A stretch of 64,000 nucleotides of DNA from Enterococcus crotali (GTDB taxonomy: Bacteria; Bacillota; Bacilli; Lactobacillales; Enterococcaceae): assembly GCF_000633635.1 (NCBI RefSeq), contig NZ_AYPQ01000001.1, positions 840,820 through 904,819 on the forward strand, read 5' to 3'. The position numbers and the translations under genes are program-made. Below the pieces are notes generated by a model. It made no database searches. It saw nothing but the letters and a program-made list of their open reading frames with translations, and was not told the DNA's origin. Numbering within the stretch: position 1 is the stretch's first letter; every line of letters starts with the position of its first letter. Positions 1-8,183 of this stretch are shown here, one piece after another.

Positions 1-471
1 ATCTCGTTGGAGGAACTTCACCTAAAACTTACGAATATCAATCATGAAGCGCCAACTTATTCGATTCCGTTACAAATCTTTGCATCTGGGATCGTCAGTT
101 GTACATTGATGTATATTTTTGGTGGGAATTGGAACGATTTTTTTGCGACCTTCTTCATTGGAATGATAGGTTTTAGTGTTGCTTACTTCACTAAAAAATG
201 GCTGAACATCAAATTTTTGGATGATTTTCTGGCGGCTTTTACAATTGGTTTGTTGGCTTATTTAGCAGTGAGGTTTCACTTAGCTGGAAATATTGATAAT
301 ATTATCATCGGTGCTGTCATGCCCCTTGTGCCAGGCGTTGCTATCACAAACTCATTCCGAGATATTTTGGCGGGACATTTACTAAGTGGCACTGCTCGCG
401 CAACAGAAGCGATTTTTATTGCTGGATCGATCGGTATTGGAATCGCGATTGTTTTTAAATTATTTATGTAA
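1..471 (+). CDS. Threonine/serine exporter, ThrE N-domain type subunit (5' truncated by window)
   Basis: The reading frame is open from base 1, so the gene begins before the window and only the C-terminal 156 or so residues are present. The visible part is almost entirely hydrophobic, with about five membrane segments, and contains the MPLVPGVAITNSFRD stretch typical of the ThrE (DUF1212) exporter family, whose members export threonine and serine across the cytoplasmic membrane. In lactic acid bacteria the exporter is often split into this larger part and a small DUF3815 partner, and the partner follows directly here. The TTG at 7 could be mistaken for a start, but no ribosome binding site precedes it. 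Family assignment is from motif memory; substrate is inferred. Confidence 0.8.
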   Translation: MSLEELHLKLTNINHEAPTYSIPLQIFASGIVSCTLMYIFGGNWNDFFATFFIGMIGFSVAYFTKKWLNIKFLDDFLAAFTIGLLAYLAVRFHLAGNIDNIIIGAVMPLVPGVAITNSFRDILAGHLLSGTARATEAIFIAGSIGIGIAIVFKLFM

Positions 472-986: not shown

Positions 987-1772
987 TTAGTCAATCGAAA
1001 TCTCTTGCTCTCCTTCTTCAAAGAACAATAGTAAATCTTGCAAGGACAACTTCTCTTTTTCTTCTTTATTTAAATCTTTGATGATTCGTCCTTTTTGTAA
1101 AACAATCAACCGATTTCCGTAGTTTAAAGCATCCTCCATACGATGAGTGATCATTAAACAGGTTAGCTGACCTTCTTTGATTCGCTGATCTGTCAACTGC
1201 ATCAATTGCTTCGAGGTTTTGGGATCTAAAGCGGCAGTGTGTTCATCCAAAAGCAATAGCTCTGGTTTGGTCAGAGTTGCCATCAGCAGACTTAACGCTT
1301 GTCTTTGTCCACCAGAAAGGTTACCCGTTGGTGTATCTAAGTGATTTTCTAAGCCATTTCCAACTTCACTGCAGATCTTAGTAAAAAAAGCTCTTTCTTC
1401 ATTCAATTTGCGTAGCCGAAAGCCTCGTCTTTTTCCTCGATGGAGTGCCAATAGTAAGTTCTCAGCAACAGTCATTCTTGGTGCTGTACCCATTTTCGGA
1501 TCTTGAAAAACCCGCGATAGATATTGGGCACGTTTTTCTTCAGAATAAGTAGTAATATTCTGATTGTTGATAAACAAGTCCCCTTCACTTAAAGATAATG
1601 TTCCTGCAATACTATTGAATAATGTACTCTTGCCAGCCCCGTTGCCACCTAGTACTGTGACGAATTCCCTTTGAGAAATTGTCAAGTTCACATGATTTAA
1701 AATCGTTTTTATCTCATTCATTCCATTATCAATATTTTTCGTTGCATTTTTCAGCTCTAAAACGACACTCAT
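987..1772 (-). CDS. ABC importer ATP-binding protein, TrpZ-like
   Basis: A 261-residue ABC ATPase with Walker A GGNGAGKST, signature LSGGQRQ, Walker B LLLLDEHTAAL and the H-loop THRM. It powers the importer formed with the permease and binding protein upstream in the same operon. The frame stays open to 1841, but the start at 1772 is chosen because it has a strong AAGGAGG site and its ATGA overlaps the permease stop by four bases, a classic sign of translational coupling. The three-gene layout equals the trpXYZ locus of streptococci. A tryptophan role is inferred mainly from the Trp-codon leader upstream of the operon. Confidence 0.85.
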   Translation of the reverse strand: MSVVLELKNATKNIDNGMNEIKTILNHVNLTISQREFVTVLGGNGAGKSTLFNSIAGTLSLSEGDLFINNQNITTYSEEKRAQYLSRVFQDPKMGTAPRMTVAENLLLALHRGKRRGFRLRKLNEERAFFTKICSEVGNGLENHLDTPTGNLSGGQRQALSLLMATLTKPELLLLDEHTAALDPKTSKQLMQLTDQRIKEGQLTCLMITHRMEDALNYGNRLIVLQKGRIIKDLNKEEKEKLSLQDLLLFFEEGEQEISID

Positions 1773-2656
1773 TTGTCTCCCTCCTTTTGCGATAAGAAAT
1801 GCAGATTCAAAGCCTTTTTCAGTTGTGGAATCATTAGACATGCAGCTAGTATTACTGCAGAGAAGATTTTTAGATACGTTGTGTCAAAGCCAAGCTTGAT
1901 TACAAATAAAATCAATAATTGATAGATAATACTTCCAACAACAACAGCCACTAAGCGTTCAGCAAAAGTCAATTCACCAAAAAGCACTTCTCCTATAATG
2001 ATCGATGCTAGCCCGATAACGATCACGCCTGTTCCCTTATTTACATCTGCATAACCATCATTTTGAGCAATAAGTGCGCCAGATAATGCAATCACACCAT
2101 TTGATAAGGTTAACCCTAGTATTTTCATAGAATCTGTTTTTATTCCGATCGATCGAGCCATATGCTCATTATCACCTGTTGCAATGTATGCTTGACCTAA
2201 ATTTGTATTAAAGAAAAACAGTAATAAGCTAATAATGATCGTGAGGACAATCACCCCTAAAAAGATAATGTCATAATAATTAGGTAAATTTAGTTGAAAA
2301 AAGAAGTCCTGAATTTTGGGTTTATTCAATAAAGAGAGGTTTGGTGTCTGCATTACATAAAGAATCACCGAATTCAAACCGGACATAACTAAAATACCCG
2401 CTAAAATTACTGGAATCTTGCCCTTAGTAAAGAGTAATCCTGTCACCAAACCGGCGCACATACCCGCTAAAACCCCCAGTAGAGTTGCTAAAATCGGATG
2501 GATTCCAGATGTGATTGCTGTAACACAAACTGCTCCTCCTAACGGAAATGAGCCTTCTGTCGTCATATCTGGAAAATTTAAAATACGATAAGTCATAAAA
2601 ATGCCTAATCCTAGTATTGCCCATAACATTCCTTGTCCAATTGCTGAAACAATCAT
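1769..2656 (-). CDS. ABC importer permease, TrpY-like
   Basis: A 295-residue integral membrane protein with roughly eight to nine hydrophobic segments, of the branched-chain-amino-acid type permease fold that accompanies ABC_sub_bind binding proteins. The N-terminus MIVSAIGQGMLWAILGLG and the motif NFPDMTTEGSFPLGG are typical. It forms the membrane channel of the importer and lies between the binding protein and the ATPase, overlapping the latter by ATGA. The substrate is not visible in the protein; tryptophan is inferred from the leader at 3889-3951 and from the streptococcal gene order. Confidence 0.85.
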   Translation of the reverse strand: MIVSAIGQGMLWAILGLGIFMTYRILNFPDMTTEGSFPLGGAVCVTAITSGIHPILATLLGVLAGMCAGLVTGLLFTKGKIPVILAGILVMSGLNSVILYVMQTPNLSLLNKPKIQDFFFQLNLPNYYDIIFLGVIVLTIIISLLLFFFNTNLGQAYIATGDNEHMARSIGIKTDSMKILGLTLSNGVIALSGALIAQNDGYADVNKGTGVIVIGLASIIIGEVLFGELTFAERLVAVVVGSIIYQLLILFVIKLGFDTTYLKIFSAVILAACLMIPQLKKALNLHFLSQKEGDK

Positions 2657-2674: not shown

Positions 2675-3664
2675 TTATTCTATAATAGTCGCTTTTGATT
2701 TAATTTTATCTGAAATTGAAATACCTAATTTTTCTGCTTGCTTTTGATTGATGATAATATCGCCTGTTTTAAAAGTATAAATCGGCGTTGTTGCAGGCTT
2801 GGCTGTTCCTGATAAAATAGCTGCAGCCATTTTCCCTGTTTGAACGCCTAAGTCAAATTGATTGATCCCAACTGTAGCAAGCCCACCTTGTTCAACCATT
2901 GTATCAACAGATGGGATAATCGGTGTTTTGGTTTTGTTGGCTTCATTGACGACTGTTTGCATCGCATTAGCTATCGTATTATCCGTTGGGATATAGATCG
3001 TATCAACTTCACTTGTCATGACTTGAACGGTTTGCGCTATTTCATTACTGGAAGGCACAGCAAATGTTTTCACGGTCAATCCTTTTTTCTCGGCCGCTTT
3101 TTTTGCTTCCTCTACTTGGAATTTAGAATTTTCTTCAGATGAGGCATAAAGAATACCGATCTTTTTACTTTTCGGTAATATTTCTGTTAATAAATCAAAT
3201 TGAGCGTCTACTGGGGACTTATCGCTAACTCCAGTAATGTTTCCTCCTGGTGTTTGGTTATTTTTAACTAAGCCCGCACTAACAGGATCAGTGATAGCAC
3301 CCAGAACAATAGGTATTGCGGTCGTCGTATTTGCCAATGCTTGAGCTGCCGGTGTGGCAATACCAATCAAAACATCTGCCTTTTTTTCTTGGACTAATTG
3401 CTGGCTCATAGTTGCTAATTTACTTTGATCAGCTTGACCATTTTGAAACGCGATCGTCATATTTTTACCATCTTCATACCCTTTTTCTTTCAGTCCAGCT
3501 TGAATTCCTTTATATATCTTATCCAAAGCAGGATGACTAACAAACTGCAACACCCCGACTGTTGGTAACTTTTCTGGAGTAGCTTCTTTTTTTTCTACAA
3601 AAAATGATCCGATTAAAAAAATAACAATGACTGCTACCACGATCGATAAACGATTTTTTTTCAT
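2675..3664 (-). CDS. ABC importer substrate-binding protein, TrpX-like
   Basis: A 329-residue extracellular solute-binding protein of the ABC_sub_bind (PF04392) family. Residues 6-24 form one hydrophobic segment that serves as a signal anchor; no lipobox cysteine follows, so it is probably membrane-anchored rather than a lipoprotein. Family motifs include TVGVLQFVSHPALDKIYKG and the GITDPVSAGLV-like stretch AITDPVSAGLV. It is the first structural gene of the importer operon, with a GGGGGAG ribosome site, and lies directly behind two intrinsic terminators and a Trp-rich leader peptide. Tryptophan or a close analogue is therefore the inferred ligand. Confidence 0.85.
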   Translation of the reverse strand: MKKNRLSIVVAVIVIFLIGSFFVEKKEATPEKLPTVGVLQFVSHPALDKIYKGIQAGLKEKGYEDGKNMTIAFQNGQADQSKLATMSQQLVQEKKADVLIGIATPAAQALANTTTAIPIVLGAITDPVSAGLVKNNQTPGGNITGVSDKSPVDAQFDLLTEILPKSKKIGILYASSEENSKFQVEEAKKAAEKKGLTVKTFAVPSSNEIAQTVQVMTSEVDTIYIPTDNTIANAMQTVVNEANKTKTPIIPSVDTMVEQGGLATVGINQFDLGVQTGKMAAAILSGTAKPATTPIYTFKTGDIIINQKQAEKLGISISDKIKSKATIIE

Positions 3665-3717
3665 ATCTTCTCCCCCTAATTAAACACTGACTTATTTTGT
3701 AAAATCATTAAATTCAA

Positions 3718-3763
3718 ACAAAAAAACAACGACAAATCCTAAAAAGGAGTGGTCGTTGTTTTA
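3718..3763 (-). terminator. Second leader terminator, immediately before the binding-protein gene
   Basis: On the minus strand AACAACGAC (3760-3752) pairs with GTCGTTGTT (3733-3725), followed by a run of seven T. It sits between the attenuator hairpin and the importer start codon, so transcription must pass it to reach the operon. Whether it has its own antiterminator is not evident. Confidence 0.75.
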
Positions 3764-3764
3764 T

Positions 3765-3800
3765 AACAAAAACCACATAGATCATCCATCGTCTATGTGG
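3765..3800 (-). terminator. Attenuator terminator hairpin (segments 3:4)
   Basis: On the minus strand CCACATAGA (3800-3792) pairs with TCTATGTGG (3781-3773), followed by TTTTTGTT. The stem is perfect over nine base pairs. The first arm can alternatively pair with the upstream segment around 3822-3833, which would prevent the terminator. Confidence 0.8.
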
Positions 3801-3821
3801 TCAAAATTCATCTTGAACAAA

Positions 3822-3870
3822 CCGACATAGATACAAATTTTAGAATTTGTCTTCTAAAGTTGCATCTATG
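3822..3870 (-). promoter_or_regulatory. Antiterminator/anti-antiterminator region of the Trp attenuator
   Basis: The segment TATCTATGTCGG (minus, 3833-3822) can pair in at least three exclusive ways: with CATAGAT just upstream (3870-3864), closing a hairpin that also contains TTTAGAA/TTCTAAA; with CGTAGATA overlapping the last codons of the leader peptide (3897-3890, one G-U); or with CCACATAGA, the first arm of the terminator. These are the alternative pairings expected of a ribosome-controlled attenuator. The exact switching order needs folding. Confidence 0.6.
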
Positions 3871-3888
3871 AGAGTATCATACATACAA

Positions 3889-3951
3889 CTATCTACGCCA
3901 GTTTTGCCATGAATTATTCAATTCGCTGATTGGTTTTGATAGTCGGTTCAT
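3889..3951 (-). CDS. Tryptophan leader peptide (20 aa)
   Basis: A short ORF encodes 20 residues, MNRLSKPISELNNSWQNWRR, with Trp at positions 15 and 18 just before the TAG stop. It has a consensus GAGGAG site seven bases before its ATG, and a promoter only about 30 bases upstream. Two of twenty codons being TGG, grouped near the end and followed by switchable hairpins and a terminator, is the hallmark of a ribosome-stalling leader peptide. Low charged tRNA-Trp would stall the ribosome and favour readthrough into the importer genes. The role is inferred; the ORF, ribosome site and hairpins are seen directly. Confidence 0.8.
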   Translation of the reverse strand: MNRLSKPISELNNSWQNWRR

Positions 3952-3983
3952 GTAATCACTCCTCTAGTTTTTCTATTAAAGCA

Positions 3984-4013
3984 AGTTTACACTAAAAAGA
4001 ATTTGTTCGTCAA
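3984..4013 (-). promoter_or_regulatory. Promoter of the Trp importer operon
   Basis: On the minus strand TTGACG (4013-4008) and TAAACT (3989-3984) are separated by 18 bases. Transcription would start near 3977, giving a leader RNA of about 310 bases before the first importer gene. Confidence 0.7.
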
Positions 4014-4057
4014 GCCTAAAAATAGACTAATTTAAGATTTTTTTGATTTTGTGTTCT

Positions 4058-4633
4058 TTATTTTGTTTTTTTTAACTGTCTACGGTAGCTGCAACTGTCT
4101 TTATTTTCTTTAAAAGGATAGAAATCTAAGTTTGTAAACATTTTCTGAGAAGCTTTATTCCAATTGAAAATTTCACTTACCGTAATAAAATCACGGTTCA
4201 TTTTTTTTGATTTATAAATAAAATATTTTGTGACCATTCGACCGATTCGGCGATTACGAAACGCTTGATCGATCACGATAGCATAATCATCTTCTGCTAG
4301 CCAGACGTCTCCAATAATCTGACAATGGTCACCATCGTTGTATTCAATATAATAAAGGAGCCCGTGCTGATTTTGCCATTCATACATTCGTTTGATTTGT
4401 TCTTTGCTGTATATGATTTTTATTCCGACAATATTGCGCATACTTTCTGGATCTTGATACCATTTTAGAGACTCTTTACGCATTTTATCAAAAGGAAGCA
4501 AGCGAACTTTCTCATTGATTCGGACTTTTTTTACTGGTTTACGATTGAAAGAGGACTCAGTATTTCTCTGAGTCCTCTTATTTAATAAGTCAGTTGCCAA
4601 AGTCCGCCATTTAATACTTGTCACGTCGTTCAC
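4058..4633 (-). CDS. GNAT family N-acetyltransferase
   Basis: About 190 residues with the GNAT fold: the N-terminal RLLPFDKMRKESLKWYQDPE stretch, then the acetyl-CoA loop QAFRNRRIGRMVTKY matching the Q/R-x-x-G-x-G/A motif, then EIFNWNKASQKMFTNLDF. It transfers an acetyl group from acetyl-CoA to an unknown amine. The start is uncertain: GTG codons at 4633 and 4624 are the only candidates with a nearby purine-rich site, and the region upstream of the GNAT core is unusually long and contains a perfect 12-bp hairpin (4549-4579). The small ORF at 4611-4709 overlaps it, which suggests translational coupling. Substrate unknown. Confidence 0.7.
   Translation of the reverse strand: MNDVTSIKWRTLATDLLNKRTQRNTESSFNRKPVKKVRINEKVRLLPFDKMRKESLKWYQDPESMRNIVGIKIIYSKEQIKRMYEWQNQHGLLYYIEYNDGDHCQIIGDVWLAEDDYAIVIDQAFRNRRIGRMVTKYFIYKSKKMNRDFITVSEIFNWNKASQKMFTNLDFYPFKENKDSCSYRRQLKKTK
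4549..4579. other. Strong hairpin inside the 5' part of the acetyltransferase gene
   Basis: AAGAGGACTCAG (4549-4560) pairs perfectly with CTGAGTCCTCTT (4568-4579) around a seven-base loop. On the plus strand it is followed by ATTTAAT, on the minus strand by TCAATC. Such a stem is unusual inside a coding region and may be an attenuator or mRNA-stability element. Confidence 0.6.
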
Positions 4634-4709
4634 TTCTCACATAGACCCGCTGTAATTTAGTTCTTTTTATAAAAAGTCCCAATAAAATGAATTGAATAAA
4701 TTCTTTCAT
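4611..4709 (-). CDS. Small hydrophobic-basic ORF (32 aa)
   Basis: ATG at 4709 is preceded by AGAAGGG with suitable spacing. The predicted peptide has a hydrophobic start (MKEFIQFILLGLFI) and a strongly basic tail (RTKLQRVYVRSERRDKY). It lies 27 bases after the frameshifted membrane protein gene and overlaps the start of the acetyltransferase by 23 bases in another frame. It could be a small membrane peptide, a leader peptide for the acetyltransferase, or a coupling device. No family recognised. Confidence 0.45.
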   Translation of the reverse strand: MKEFIQFILLGLFIKRTKLQRVYVRSERRDKY

Positions 4710-4736
4710 ATCAAGCCCTTCTTTCTAAAATTTGAT

Positions 4737-5398
4737 TTATTGCGCTACTGGTTCAGCCTCTGCCGATTGTTCTACTGCTTGCCCATCCACTGCTGTTGAT
4801 TGAGTTGTTTCGGCAGTTGAATCTTTTGGTTCTGTTACTGAAGAAGCTGGCGGTTCAACACTTTGTTCTAGACTAGACAACGGCAACTGATTTAAAGCCA
4901 GAATTAATAAGGTATTGACATCAAAACTTGCATCAATAGGAATCCTATTTTTTCTTTGCCATTTTCAAAGAAAATGACCGTCACTTCATCCCTTTTAACA
5001 GCATATTTCTCTTCGATTTTCTCTGGATCATATACAATAGGATAAACAAATATACTGTGATTAAATTCTTTGATTTTTTTAGAATCTTTTAACACTTGAA
5101 TCACTTGATTGTATGTTTTTCCACTTGGCACTGAAAACAAAACAGTCATAGCAGTTTTTTCACTGATTTCTTTATCTGCCGTTTGGGCATCTAAGTAGCT
5201 TGCTTTTTTTGTTAGTTTTTCTTGACTCACTAGAGATTTGATTTCAGATGAACGAATATTGGCCTGTACCCGAGGTACTACTATAAATAAACTTATAATC
5301 AACACAACAATCACAGCTATAATAATTGCAGTAAGTTTTTTCTGTCTGTTTAAAGAAGCTACAAAATCATCCTTAACATCAATAAAATTTTTCTTCAT
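4737..5398 (-). pseudogene. Membrane-anchored thioredoxin-like protein, frameshifted
   Basis: The first frame (5398-4904) encodes a cytoplasmic N-terminus, one membrane segment (about residues 22-45) and a soluble domain whose TVLFSVPSGKTYNQVIQVL and VTVIFFENGKE strands resemble a thioredoxin fold without a CxxC site. The frame then ends prematurely. Adding one A to the A6 run near 4957-4962 restores a continuous 220-residue protein that continues IPIDASFDVNTLLILALNQLP and ends in a Ser/Thr/Pro/Glu-rich tail to the stop at 4737. The frame change is seen directly; whether it is a mutation, slippage site or sequencing error is unknown. Function not recognised. Confidence 0.65.
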
Positions 5399-5563
5399 TT
5401 GTTCTCTCCTCTACAACTTATATTCTTATTATACTAGTAGTTTATTCCTTTGCCTAGTATAACAAATAAAGCGAGATCTTTTTTTACAAAAAATTAGAAT
5501 ATTTCCGCGAATAAAGTCAATAAATATTAAAAAACAACAATAATAAAAAGGGGATTTCAGCTG

Positions 5564-5592
5564 TTGACAAAACAAAGTACGTAGCCTATACT
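5564..5592 (+). promoter_or_regulatory. Promoter of the MetE-like operon
   Basis: TTGACA (5564-5569) and TATACT (5587-5592) are separated by exactly 17 bases, just upstream of the T-box leader. This is a near-consensus vegetative promoter. Confidence 0.8.
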
Positions 5593-5609
5593 TTCATTAA
5601 TGATGAATA

Positions 5610-5890
5610 TATTAAAATACGATGAAAAGAAGAGTACTATTTTTAGATAATTGATGAGAGAGTCTCGGTTGCTGAAAAGAGATAGTTTGAAAAAATAGGA
5701 AGATGGTCTTTTCGTAAATAGTGGCCAACACTTGTACAGTCATTATTGGGAGCGCCCATTATAGCGCCAAGGTATCGATCATAATATTTGTACCTATAGA
5801 GGAAAATCTTGTGAGAGATTTTTGAATTAAAGGTGGTAACACGATTAGTCGTCCTTTACTTTTGCAAAAGTATTGGGCTTTTTTTGTGTT
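5610..5890 (+). ncRNA. T-box leader, probably methionine specific
   Basis: The conserved T-box sequence AAGGTGGTAACACGA is at 5830-5844 and is followed by AGTCGTCCTTT, which completes the antiterminator, and by the terminator stem ACTTTTGCAAAAGT (5858-5871) with a T-run at 5880-5886. Upstream, AGTA in the 5' side of stem I (5631-5634) faces GAAGATGG (5700-5706) on the 3' side, giving the specifier-loop E motif with ATG (5703-5705) as the specifier codon, i.e. Met. Uncharged tRNA-Met would stabilise the antiterminator and switch on the two MetE-like genes downstream. Specifier choice is by eye. Confidence 0.85.
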
Positions 5891-5922
5891 CTTTAATAAA
5901 TCAACTAAATGGAGGAATCAAT

Positions 5923-7041
5923 ATGCCTAACAGTAACCCAAAAATCCCTTTTCGCTATGATATTGTTGGAAGTTTTCTACGGCCAGATTCGTTGAAAAAG
6001 GCTCGTAGCGCTTTCGCCAATGGTCGCATTTCCAAAGAAGAATTAACAACCGTTGAAGATCAAACAATCATTACTCTCATTGAAAAGCAAAAAGAAGCTG
6101 GTCTTCACGCAGTAACCGATGGTGAATTTCGCCGTCGTTGGTGGCATTTGGACTTTATTGCAGGTCTAAATGGCATCACTGTATACGACTTTCAAACAAC
6201 TGCCTTTGGTCTCACAACTGATGCTCAAGGAAGCTATGTCAGCGGACCGTTATCGTTTTCAACTGATCATCCATTTCTTGATCATTTTCGATTTACACAA
6301 AAACATGCATCGCCTATTTTAGCGAAACAAACGATCCCTGGACCGAATATGATTTTCTTAGATTCATTGATTTTATCAAAACAATACAATGAAAATCCTA
6401 TTTATGACTCCTTAGAAGCGTTCAAAAACGACTTGATCACAACCTATCAAGAAGCGATCCAAGCTTTCTATGACGCAGGCTGTCGCTACCTACAATTAGA
6501 CGATACAAGTTGGGGTGGATTATTCGATGACCGATTCCGTGAAATGATCAAAACAAATGGGTTTGATGCCGATGTCCTCTTAGATGACTTTCAAGAGGTG
6601 ACCGAAAAAGTTTTAGCCAATAAACCAGATGACCTTGCCGTTACCTTCCATTTCTGTAAAGGTAATTTCCAATCTCACTGGCTGTATAATGGTTCTTATG
6701 AAAAAATCGCCAAAAATTTATTTTCGATCGAAGCCTTCGATGGCTTTTTCTTAGAATACGACGATGAACGCTCTGGCAGCTTTGAGCCGCTTAAGGATTT
6801 AAAAGATCAACGAATTGTTCTAGGTTTAGTGACAACGAAACATGGTCAACTAGAAGAACCTTCTGAAATCACAAAGCGCATCAATGAAGCCAGTAAATTT
6901 GTGCCATTGGATCAAATTTGCCTCTCCCCTCAATGTGGATTTGCTTCCACTCATGAAGGAAATCATCTAACAGAGGTTGAACAATGGGAAAAAATCGAGC
7001 TTGTAAAAACGATTGCCGAAACGATTTGGCAAGACGCTTAA
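5923..7041 (+). CDS. MetE C-terminal-domain-like methyltransferase (YxjG/YxjH family), copy 1
   Basis: A 372-residue protein with only the catalytic half of cobalamin-independent methionine synthase. The zinc ligands can be read: His and Cys in TFHFCKGNF, a Glu in FLEYDDERSG and Cys in LSPQCGFAST. The family makes methionine by methyl transfer to homocysteine; lack of the N-terminal MetE domain means the methyl donor is uncertain. The frame extends upstream through the T-box, but the ATG at 5923 with GGAGG is the proper start. It is followed at 20 bases by a paralogue and is controlled by the Met T-box. Confidence 0.9.
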   Translation: MPNSNPKIPFRYDIVGSFLRPDSLKKARSAFANGRISKEELTTVEDQTIITLIEKQKEAGLHAVTDGEFRRRWWHLDFIAGLNGITVYDFQTTAFGLTTDAQGSYVSGPLSFSTDHPFLDHFRFTQKHASPILAKQTIPGPNMIFLDSLILSKQYNENPIYDSLEAFKNDLITTYQEAIQAFYDAGCRYLQLDDTSWGGLFDDRFREMIKTNGFDADVLLDDFQEVTEKVLANKPDDLAVTFHFCKGNFQSHWLYNGSYEKIAKNLFSIEAFDGFFLEYDDERSGSFEPLKDLKDQRIVLGLVTTKHGQLEEPSEITKRINEASKFVPLDQICLSPQCGFASTHEGNHLTEVEQWEKIELVKTIAETIWQDA

Positions 7042-7061: not shown

Positions 7062-8183
7062 ATGACTATTATTAAAGAAATTCCATTTCGCTACGATCAA
7101 GTAGGTAGTTTTTTGCGACCAGACGTGCTAAAAAAAGCCAGAGTAGATTTTCAAAATCAAACAATCTCGGCTGCTGAATTAAAAGGAGTTGAAGATGCTG
7201 CGATCATCGACTTGATCAACAAACAAGTTGAAAATGGCTTAAAAGCTGTAACGGATGGTGAGTTTCGCCGTAGTTGGTGGCATCTAGATTTTCTTTGGGG
7301 ACTAAACGGCGTGGAACAAACCACTCCTGAACACGGCTATCAGTTTAATCAAGTTGAAACGAGAGCCGCATCTTACCAAATAACTGATAAAGTTACTTTT
7401 AACGCTGAACACCCGTTCTTTGACGCTTTTACATTCTTAAAAGAGCACACACCGGAAGGAGCTGTCCCAAAAGCTACAATTCCTTCTCCTACCTTACTTT
7501 TTAATCGTAAAAGTGATACATTTACTTATGCAAGTTATACAGATGAAGCTGTTTTTATCGATGATTTAGCTAAAGCATATCATCAAACCATTCTAAAATT
7601 TTATGACTTAGGTTGCCGTTATCTACAATTAGATGATACTTCTTGGGGAATGTATACAGGTTTTATTGAGAATGCTAAGACACAAGAGGAAATCAAGCAC
7701 TGGCAACAACAATGTGAAGCAGGCGTTGCTGTTATAAACAAGTTACTTAAAGATTTGCCCGAAGATTTAACAATTACAATGCATGTTTGCCGTGGGAATT
7801 ATAAGTCTGACTGGGCAATTGCTGGACCCTATGACCACGTTGTTGCTTATTTAGCGCAATTAAATATCGATGGCTACTTTTTAGAGTATGATGATGATCG
7901 CTCTGGTGGATTTGAGCCATTAGAGCGAATTTACAAAAACGGACCAGCAAAAAAAGTCGTCCTTGGTTTAGTAACGTCTAAATTTGCTGCACTGGAACCA
8001 GTTGCTCGTTTGACAAGTCGAATCAATGAGGCAACGTCCTTCATTCCACTGGAAAATCTTTGCCTTTCTCCTCAATGTGGTTTTGCTTCTACAGAAGAAG
8101 GAAATCATTTAACAGAAGATGAACAGTGGGCAAAAGTCCGACTAGTTGTCGACACAGCTAAAGCTGTTTGGCAAGATGCTTAA
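7062..8183 (+). CDS. MetE C-terminal-domain-like methyltransferase (YxjG/YxjH family), copy 2
   Basis: A 373-residue paralogue of the preceding gene, sharing the start IPFRYDQVGSFLRPDVLKKAR, the zinc site (TMHVCRGNY, FLEYDDDRSG, LSPQCGFAST) and the LQLDDTSWG motif. AAGGAGG precedes the ATG. The pair arose by tandem duplication and both are expressed from the same T-box-controlled message. The copies have diverged mainly in the middle, so they may use different methyl donors or acceptors. A bidirectional terminator ends the operon. Confidence 0.9.
   Translation: MTIIKEIPFRYDQVGSFLRPDVLKKARVDFQNQTISAAELKGVEDAAIIDLINKQVENGLKAVTDGEFRRSWWHLDFLWGLNGVEQTTPEHGYQFNQVETRAASYQITDKVTFNAEHPFFDAFTFLKEHTPEGAVPKATIPSPTLLFNRKSDTFTYASYTDEAVFIDDLAKAYHQTILKFYDLGCRYLQLDDTSWGMYTGFIENAKTQEEIKHWQQQCEAGVAVINKLLKDLPEDLTITMHVCRGNYKSDWAIAGPYDHVVAYLAQLNIDGYFLEYDDDRSGGFEPLERIYKNGPAKKVVLGLVTSKFAALEPVARLTSRINEATSFIPLENLCLSPQCGFASTEEGNHLTEDEQWAKVRLVVDTAKAVWQDA

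Follow-up and report, generated by a model that had tools for sequence, protein, structure and literature searches.

How transcription of the tryptophan importer operon of Enterococcus crotali is controlled is the question raised by the DNA upstream of trpX. The window analysed here is a stretch of 64,000 nucleotides (RefSeq assembly GCF_000633635.1, contig NZ_AYPQ01000001.1, positions 840,820 to 904,819). The leader occupies its minus strand from 4013 to 3665, where a short upstream ORF (uORF) and a series of complementary segments ending in a terminator are followed by trpX, a permease gene, and an ATPase gene (Table 1). A preliminary description of this DNA had read the leader as a Trp leader-peptide attenuator, and the elements it listed, i.e., the promoter boxes, the Shine-Dalgarno (SD) sequence, the 20-codon uORF with Trp15 and Trp18, and three sets of complementary segments, are all in place on the minus strand. 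On a computational basis, made up of sequence comparison and folding models, we regard the leader as a ribosome-mediated transcription attenuator of the trpX importer operon with a probability of roughly 0.88.

Table 1. Features of the trpX leader and importer operon in the window.
Feature	Positions	Strand	Basis
-35 element TTGACG	4008..4013	-	sequence; kept in 18/18 close-relative leaders aligned
Extended -10-like element TGTAAACT	3984..3991	-	TGTAnACT in 18/18 leaders aligned
Shine-Dalgarno core GGAG of the uORF	3959..3962	-	sequence
Leader ORF (uORF), 20 codons, MNRLSKPISELNNSWQNWRR and stop	3889..3951	-	sequence and orthologues
Specifier codons Trp15 (3909-3907) and Trp18 (3900-3898)	3898..3909	-	Trp in last 8 codons, 182/194 loci
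Segment 0: stop region with specifier codons; complement of segment 3 plus its extension	3890..3913	-	
Segment 1 GTTGTATGTATG; first base is the last base of the stop codon; partner, segment 2	3878..3889	-	
Segment 2 CATAGATGCAAC; 5' arm of P1 of the trpB motif	3859..3870	-	
Segment 3; 3' arm of P1 and antiterminator arm	3821..3834	-	
Segment 4 GACCACATAGA; partner, segment 3 or 5	3792..3802	-	
Segment 5; 3' arm of terminator hairpin, then U-rich tract	3772..3781	-	
Extent of Rfam RF04312 (trpB motif) match	3761..3872	-	covariance-model match
Second terminator-like hairpin, in tandem with the attenuator terminator and immediately 3' of it; T run	3720..3760	-	sequence
trpX, tryptophan ABC transporter substrate-binding protein	2675..3664	-	Pfam PF04392, NCBIfam NF041285
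Importer permease	1769..2656	-	Pfam PF02653
Importer ATPase; start of the longest ORF, true start may be later	987..1841	-	Pfam PF00005

The TrpX protein scores 472 bits against NCBIfam NF041285 (cut-off 390), and the leader folds with a z-score of -5.5, a value that none of 100 shuffles reached. A generic promoter scan was not significant alone (2 found on 701 bases versus 3.1 expected), and a generic terminator scan listed none in the leader, the segment 5 hairpin included. Nearly identical leader peptides are encoded in Enterococcus ureasiticus (L294), E. quebecensis (L304), and E. rivorum (L233). The present analysis extends the preliminary description by the homology to RF04312, segment 1 (3889-3878), the complementarity of the specifier region (3913-3890) to the antiterminator arm, and the hairpin at 3760-3720. 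The unusual footprint geometry remarked on there, in which the first stem starts about 28 bases after the last Trp codon, is real: 27 nt separate the end of that codon from the first arm, and the gap is explained by segment 1, which sits inside it. The plus strand just past the importer operon carries two neighbouring small ORFs (window positions 7-471 and 478-942) whose products have the character of membrane proteins.

By its sequence, the RNA is not unique to the trpX locus but is a homologue of the published trpB motif. The RF04312 'trpB' model matches the window leader over its full length (1-107) with 54 bits and an E-value of 8.5e-5 in a search of the whole window. With this score, under the Rfam gathering cut-off of 59, the window copy falls short of the curated threshold and is treated here as a homologue, not as a curated member of the family; at the gathering threshold Rfam gives zero matches in the window, and the motif is visible in E-value mode only. 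Copies above the RF04312 cut-off occur in 42 of 105 genomes of the same family, several of them in the same genus and before the same downstream gene. At E ≤ 1e-4, 101 of these 105 genomes have a match, and matches were found in 173 of 395 genomes of the order (own genome counted in both figures) and in 3 of 398 genomes of a phylum-wide sample, the own genome being among the 3. After this sparse sample, searches were made at the level of orders, and 40 of 194 genomes of one clostridial order gave a match at E ≤ 0.001. Similar DNA was not found in the plasmid collection.

A 2024 paper (Narunsky et al., PMC11109978) described more than 900 representatives of the trpB motif and presented it as a strong riboswitch candidate, most often found upstream of a gene for an uncharacterised ABC transporter related to those for amino acids, and now and then upstream of trpB; the authors state that they 'cannot rule out' a protein factor or a classic attenuator. 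The motif shares with the window leader the P1 hairpin, the terminator, and the antiterminator in the right shoulder of P1, as well as a downstream gene that is an amino-acid ABC transporter or trpB. In the consulted sections of PMC11109978, the motif is presented without a uORF, without segment 0 or 1, and without amino-acid specificity. Within the open-access journal literature searched, the 'trpB motif' is treated only in PMC11109978, and neither a uORF for it nor a link to His, Phe/Tyr, or Leu leaders was found.

At each locus the uORF was picked by the best start codon and SD match, blind to the encoded amino acids. A Trp codon lies within the last 8 uORF codons at 182 of 194 RF04312 loci (among the matches listed; six sites from the family search were added only later), compared with a mean of 13 and a maximum of 18 in 20 rounds of dinucleotide shuffling and with 14 of 194 for the reverse complements. 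Since the RF04312 model begins downstream of the uORF, the uORF provides independent evidence. The 12 loci without a late Trp codon comprise L104, where little upstream sequence is available and no ORF was found; L118, L191, and L198, which are hits without the RNA core and, like L104, are counted within the 194; L053, L082, L085, L108, and L122, in which Trp is encoded upstream of the last 8 codons; L199, where two ATGs score equally and the alternative one opens a uORF with WRNWRR at its C-terminus; and L041 and L197, which carry Phe or Phe/Tyr codons. An ATG uORF with an SD match of at least 5 bases is present in 117 of 144 non-redundant leaders, versus 2 to 11 in 10 shuffle rounds. At the sequence level, a short ORF with codons of the regulated amino acid, as in an attenuator, is therefore present. 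The preliminary description had named orthologous leaders lacking the Trp codons or the ORF as evidence against its reading; that comparison was run, and the orthologous leaders keep the SD sequence, the uORF, the Trp codons, and the mutually exclusive stems with covariation, which supports the attenuator. The C-terminal WQNWRR is strongly conserved. In one family of the order (L042, L067, L093, L098, L109, L110, L115, and L117), the uORF has a single Trp codon and ends in WQSR or WQNR before the stop; good 1:2 pairing is absent from this group, which is perhaps a reduced form of the switch.

The comparative analyses rest on 370 loci, which were reduced to 144 non-redundant representatives. 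A duplicate of the window (L001) and weak own-genome hits with E-values of 0.009-0.14, judged to be non-members (L004, L005, L007, L008, and L009), were dropped, as were the RF04312 hits L118, L191, and L198 and the pattern hits L314 and L350, once the best uORFs of these five proved to be without specifier codons. The CATAGAT...ATCTATG core is absent from L118, L191, and L198; these three and L350 have no 1:2 pairing beyond chance in mononucleotide shuffles, and for L314 the corresponding value is 5 of 100 shuffles. L307 and L308 have insufficient upstream sequence, and the clostridial match G1011 was left out of the loci. Five of the 370 loci are without a matching uORF pick, i.e., L104 (little upstream sequence), L371 (match out of register), L199, L381, and L382; in the last three, an equal-scoring second ATG gives MNLSIQFLSEHKNNWRNWRR or a near copy, so Trp codons are present. 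For the folding, segment 0, swap, and specifier analyses, the uORF of L040 and L296 was set by hand to the ORF ending in WQNWRR. The folding analyses cover 137 of the 144 representatives, 7 being lost to missing alignment columns or codons. L339 (...RHHHR...) is a His leader that the classifier placed with Phe. Gene families were named with Pfam on ten examples only, and the other members were assigned by BLAST clustering.

In the consensus, the uORF stop is followed by segment 1 (gGtTTGTATTTATG), segment 2 (CATAGATACAA..), segment 3 (TTGTATCTATGnTGGcT), segment 4 (agCCaCATAGAT), segment 5 (atCTATGtGGtT), and a U run; segment 1 is similar to segment 3, and segment 4 is similar to segment 2. 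In 131 of the 144 leaders, no more than 5 of 100 shuffles give a 1:2 duplex as good as the native one or better, and 9 of the 13 representatives without good 1:2 pairing have a single Trp codon. Alignment cells in which both sides of a pair have changed number 90, 41, 81, and 222 for 1:2, 2:3, 3:4, and 4:5, respectively, against maxima of 45, 16, 65, and 81 in 300 shuffles. When the partners are slid by 1 or 2 columns, pairing falls to 19-52%, with the exception that 3:4 slid by -2 columns retains 65 both-changed cells. The percentage paired is barely above that of the shuffles except for 4:5 (88.7 versus 84.5 for 1:2 and 83.4 versus 80.9 for 3:4), and the number of pair types in 3:4 (25) is not above the shuffled value (25.8). 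When segments are exchanged between species (136 leaders), the 1:2 pairing becomes weaker, from -16.2 in the native leaders to -12.1 for exchanges inside a specifier class and -9.6 for exchanges across classes. In the alignment of 144 leaders, the P1 hairpin and the terminator covary, and the right shoulder of P1 contains the antiterminator. Neither the P1 loop (median 20, up to 34) nor the linker (15-50) has a fixed length. Sequence and comparison together establish the uORF, its Trp codons, the helices 1:2, 2:3, 3:4, and 4:5 with their covariation, the 0:3 complementarity, and the geometry of the leader. A second copy of a CCACATAG-type repeat is also seen 3' of the first hairpin in some clostridial leaders (e.g., L206 and L213).

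The effect of ribosome position was modeled by folding transcripts that end just before segment 5, with an imposed ribosome footprint reaching 11 nt past the A-site codon, a value assumed from general knowledge. Where 1:2 pairing is good (124 leaders), the footprint hides 79% of segment 1 when the ribosome is at the stop codon and 1% when it is at the first specifier codon. Over 137 leaders, the predicted probability of the 3:4 helix, P(3:4), averages 0.80 and 0.53 with the ribosome at the first and last specifier codons, respectively, 0.13 with it at the stop codon, and 0.33 without a ribosome. Between the first specifier codon and the stop codon, 112 of the 137 leaders shift by more than 0.2 as predicted and 25 do not; the single opposite shift belongs to L371, whose match is out of register. 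The shift is smaller with the ribosome at the last specifier codon (74 of 137 up, 2 down), and the His leaders flip weakly (mean 0.42 versus 0.19, n = 11). The outcome is similar for a footprint of 8 nt, with 103 leaders up and 1 down, and for one of 14 nt, with 107 up and 6 down, whereas shuffling of the segment 1 stretch abolished the flip (10 up, 8 down; 11 up, 12 down). For the window copy, P(3:4) is 0.95 at Trp15, 0.93 at Trp18, 0.03 at the stop codon, and 0.02 without a ribosome. The ribosome-free state is partly OFF, with P(3:4) below 0.5 in 94 of 137 leaders. In these computations the antiterminator and the terminator are mutually exclusive, and the position of the ribosome decides between them. 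The minimum free energy structure of the full-length window transcript contains the terminator with the ribosome at Trp18 and at the stop codon alike; equilibrium folding leaves co-transcriptional kinetics out, and the model therefore requires 3:4 to form before segment 5 is made.

The specifier region also appears to act as an RNA strand. Of 81 Trp leaders, 66 have CAA directly after the first Trp codon and none has CAG; conservation at this position is at the nucleotide level, for which pairing with segment 3 is a likely cause. The 0:3 pairing has a mean of -13.8 kcal/mol, compared with -8.7 for synonymous recodings; the native pairing exceeds the recoded mean in 132 of 137 leaders and at least 90 of 100 recodings in 88. 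In the window copy, 0:3 reaches -18.5 kcal/mol, which 3 of 100 synonymous recodings equal. Only 2 of 11 His leaders and 0 of 3 Leu leaders pass the test of at least 90 of 100 recodings. Swaps weaken 0:3 from -15.6 to -13.1 within specifier classes and to -9.7 between them, and the native 0:3 of the Leu leaders (-10.2) is weaker than their within-class swaps (-11.3). The greater losses between classes argue that the downstream strand changes with the amino acid, so that the downstream partner of segment 0 may be seen as an 'anti-specifier'. In the predicted ribosome-free fold of the window copy, the 0:3 helix encloses 1:2 and dominates. A general rule that the ribosome-free leader is off was rejected, with P(0:3) above 0.5 in only 24 of 137 leaders.

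The amino acid read by these leaders is not always tryptophan. The evidence on codon swaps comes from the clostridial order and from a pattern scan of named genomes, in which the pattern consisted of segments 2 and 3 only and at least 119 stretches were found. Runs of His codons occur in uORFs that precede the same RNA core before genes of the histidyl-tRNA-synthetase family and SBP_bac_3 binding proteins, one of these leaders being in Fusobacterium mortiferum (L245). The core also follows uORFs like FFFSFFR, YYYNYYR, and YYFSYFR upstream of transporters of the NSS and BrnQ types, ABC permeases, TrpX-like binding proteins, and aroE, and a Phe/Tyr-type leader precedes a DAHP synthase gene in Aliicoccus persicus (Staphylococcaceae). 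LLLLANLR uORFs precede a separate NSS group; the mean identity of Leu-type to Phe/Tyr-type NSS proteins is 31%, and that among the Leu-type proteins is 82%. The spread covers Lactobacillales, Clostridia including Peptostreptococcaceae, one member of Staphylococcaceae, and one Fusobacterium.

Among the 144 representatives, the specifier is His for all 12 HisS/HisZ-like genes and both SBP_bac_3 genes, and Trp for all 4 TrpB genes. The 78 TrpX-like genes divide into 74 with Trp, 2 with Phe, 1 with Phe and Tyr, and 1 without a uORF; the 25 NSS genes into 18 with Phe/Tyr, 2 with Phe/Tyr and Trp, 3 with Leu, 1 with Trp, and 1 other; the 9 BrnQ-type genes into 7 with Phe or Phe and Tyr and 2 with Trp added; and the 7 ABC permease genes into 5 with Phe and 2 with Phe and Tyr. 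The single aroE and DAHP synthase genes both have Phe and Tyr, and 5 representatives have another gene or none. The label HisS/HisZ-like was chosen because the histidyl-tRNA-synthetase family comes in two sizes (431-452 and 295-324 aa) and an anticodon-binding domain is present in L227, the sole member scanned. The BrnQ-type genes, which Pfam assigns to branched-chain amino acid transport, carry non-branched-chain Phe/Tyr specifiers in 9 of 9 cases, so gene name and codon do not always agree; these loci (e.g., L206, L213, L218, L248, and L303) hint at a substrate other than the one the family name indicates. Two paralogues in the genome of E. crotali outside the window (L003 and L006) have uORFs ending in YYFSYFR before aroE and in AYFSYFR before a second TrpX-like binding protein; from its codons, the latter leader predicts a Phe/Tyr importer. 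In two loci, L042 and L360, the attenuator is followed by a first long ORF that resembles, by eye, a group II intron reverse transcriptase, suggesting an insertion between the leader and its target gene.

In the proposed mechanism, a ribosome supplied with ample Trp-tRNA would proceed to the stop codon and cover approximately 11 nt beyond it, i.e., segment 1, whereupon segment 2 would pair with segment 3, freeing segment 4 to form the terminator with segment 5. When Trp-tRNA is scarce, the ribosome would stall at Trp15 or Trp18 and leave segment 1 exposed; segment 1 would then pair with segment 2, so that segment 3 would pair with segment 4 and RNA polymerase would read through. For the trpX leader, we infer the stalling, the termination, and the response to tryptophan from these structures. 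In the window copy and a minority of its relatives, an untranslated leader would also be OFF, because the 0:3 helix is predicted to dominate without a ribosome, and the ON state would occur only with a ribosome on the codons. A wider reading has, in our estimate, an even chance of being right: a single homologous chassis, programmable by codons for Trp, Phe, Tyr, His, or Leu, in which the codons serve both as specifier and as the segment 0 strand, three partners contest segment 3, and the operon is ON only with a ribosome on the specifier codons and OFF if translation finishes or never starts. This three-state form is kept apart from the main claim because 0:3 is predicted to be dominant in only 24 of the 137 leaders. 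Because the same chassis recurs with codons for His, Phe/Tyr, and Leu, and the genes behind it mostly match, it is most likely that the trpB motif belongs to this attenuator class and is not a riboswitch.

Other forms of control have to be weighed against a tRNA-sensing attenuator. TRAP and T-box RNAs are the usual control of Firmicute Trp genes, which is a point in favor of a Trp-responsive, TRAP-like protein or a T-box acting on the leader. The trpX of Streptococcus suis has a T-box (PMC9382623). In the E. crotali genome, however, TRAP (PF02081) has 0 matches, in a search whose control was positive in Bacillus subtilis, and no T-box was found in the leader at E-values up to 1 (stretch 3500-6000 searched), which renders this form of control extremely improbable here. 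T-box matches at E ≤ 0.001 number 25 in the whole genome, which thus relies on T-boxes at other loci and on the present leader at trpX. The only T-box match in 3500-6000 is RF00230 at 5613-5859 on the plus strand (92.1 bits versus a gathering cut-off of 93, E 8.2e-19); it precedes two tandem ORFs (about 5923-7041 and 7062-8183), which resemble genes for MetE-type methyltransferases.

A metabolite riboswitch that binds tryptophan or a related ligand directly was the first proposal of the trpB-motif authors, who presented the RNA as a strong candidate (PMC11109978). The variable lengths of the P1 loop and the linker leave no conserved aptamer core apparent, and one core serves Trp, His, Phe/Tyr, and Leu leaders whose specificity lies in the uORF codons, so that we consider direct ligand binding very improbable. 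TnaC is a nascent-peptide arrest switch, and arrest of this kind, with free tryptophan holding the ribosome at the uORF stop, segment 1 covered, and the operon off, would suit the geometry equally well and would account for the highly conserved WQNWRR C-terminus. Relatives with His, Phe, Tyr, or Leu runs at the same place, however, fit tRNA sensing, and the conservation after the first Trp is at the nucleotide level (CAA) and stems at least partly from the pairing with segment 3; peptide arrest is accordingly rated as very improbable. Because specificity swaps by codon at a fixed place, sensing of tRNA by the translating ribosome is favored over both peptide arrest and ligand binding.

Attenuators of the E. 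coli trpL type have an SD sequence, a short ORF with codons of the regulated amino acid, and mutually exclusive antiterminator and terminator structures, with segment 1 masked by the stalled ribosome. The trpX leader shares the SD sequence, the short ORF with cognate codons, and the exclusive structures with the proteobacterial trp, his, and phe attenuators, whereas its segment 1 would be masked by the ribosome at the stop codon and exposed by the stalled one, the inverse of the E. coli arrangement, and its chain has one more segment than that of the E. coli trp leader. The contrast that the preliminary description drew between such attenuation and the T-box and TRAP control of Firmicutes is softer than presented, because leader-peptide attenuation in Firmicutes has already been reported or predicted for His and branched-chain amino acids (PMC9413887, PMC2965389, PMC5794164). 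The Firmicute His-leader attenuators, described for genes of the his/hisS family (PMC9413887; PMC2965389), likewise combine a His-codon uORF (runs of three to five His codons in PMC9413887) with attenuator and terminator hairpins; in their consulted sections these papers connect them neither with the trpB motif nor with leaders for Trp, Phe/Tyr, or Leu. The Peptostreptococcaceae His leaders of Clostridioides and Terrisporobacter (PMC9413887) very probably overlap the His members found here, of which L279 and L299 are from Terrisporobacter. The ilv-leu operon of Staphylococcus aureus shares translation-dependent attenuation in a Firmicute and has a Leu-rich peptide, and differs, as described, in that an upstream motif pairs with the poly-U tail of the terminator (PMC5794164). 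The T-box of S. suis trpXYZ has the kind of importer and the predicted signal, uncharged tRNA-Trp, in common with the present leader but binds the tRNA directly, and a leader peptide is not mentioned in the consulted sections (PMC9382623). The His members and Firmicute leader-peptide attenuators in general are thus already known; what appears to be new, judging from comparison and folding models, is the inverted masking of segment 1 relative to the E. coli trp leader and the conserved chassis with exchangeable codons.

If this reading is true, the more than 900 published trpB-motif RNAs (PMC11109978) would be ribosome-read attenuators, which would explain an orphan family, and hunts for a ligand of the motif would for that reason fail. 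The chassis would be a codon-programmable counterpart of the T-box in Firmicutes, in which the amino acid is written in plain codons. The leaders would then allow substrates to be predicted for poorly annotated transporters, such as the Leu-type versus the Phe/Tyr-type NSS proteins, the BrnQ-type proteins, and the second TrpX-like protein.
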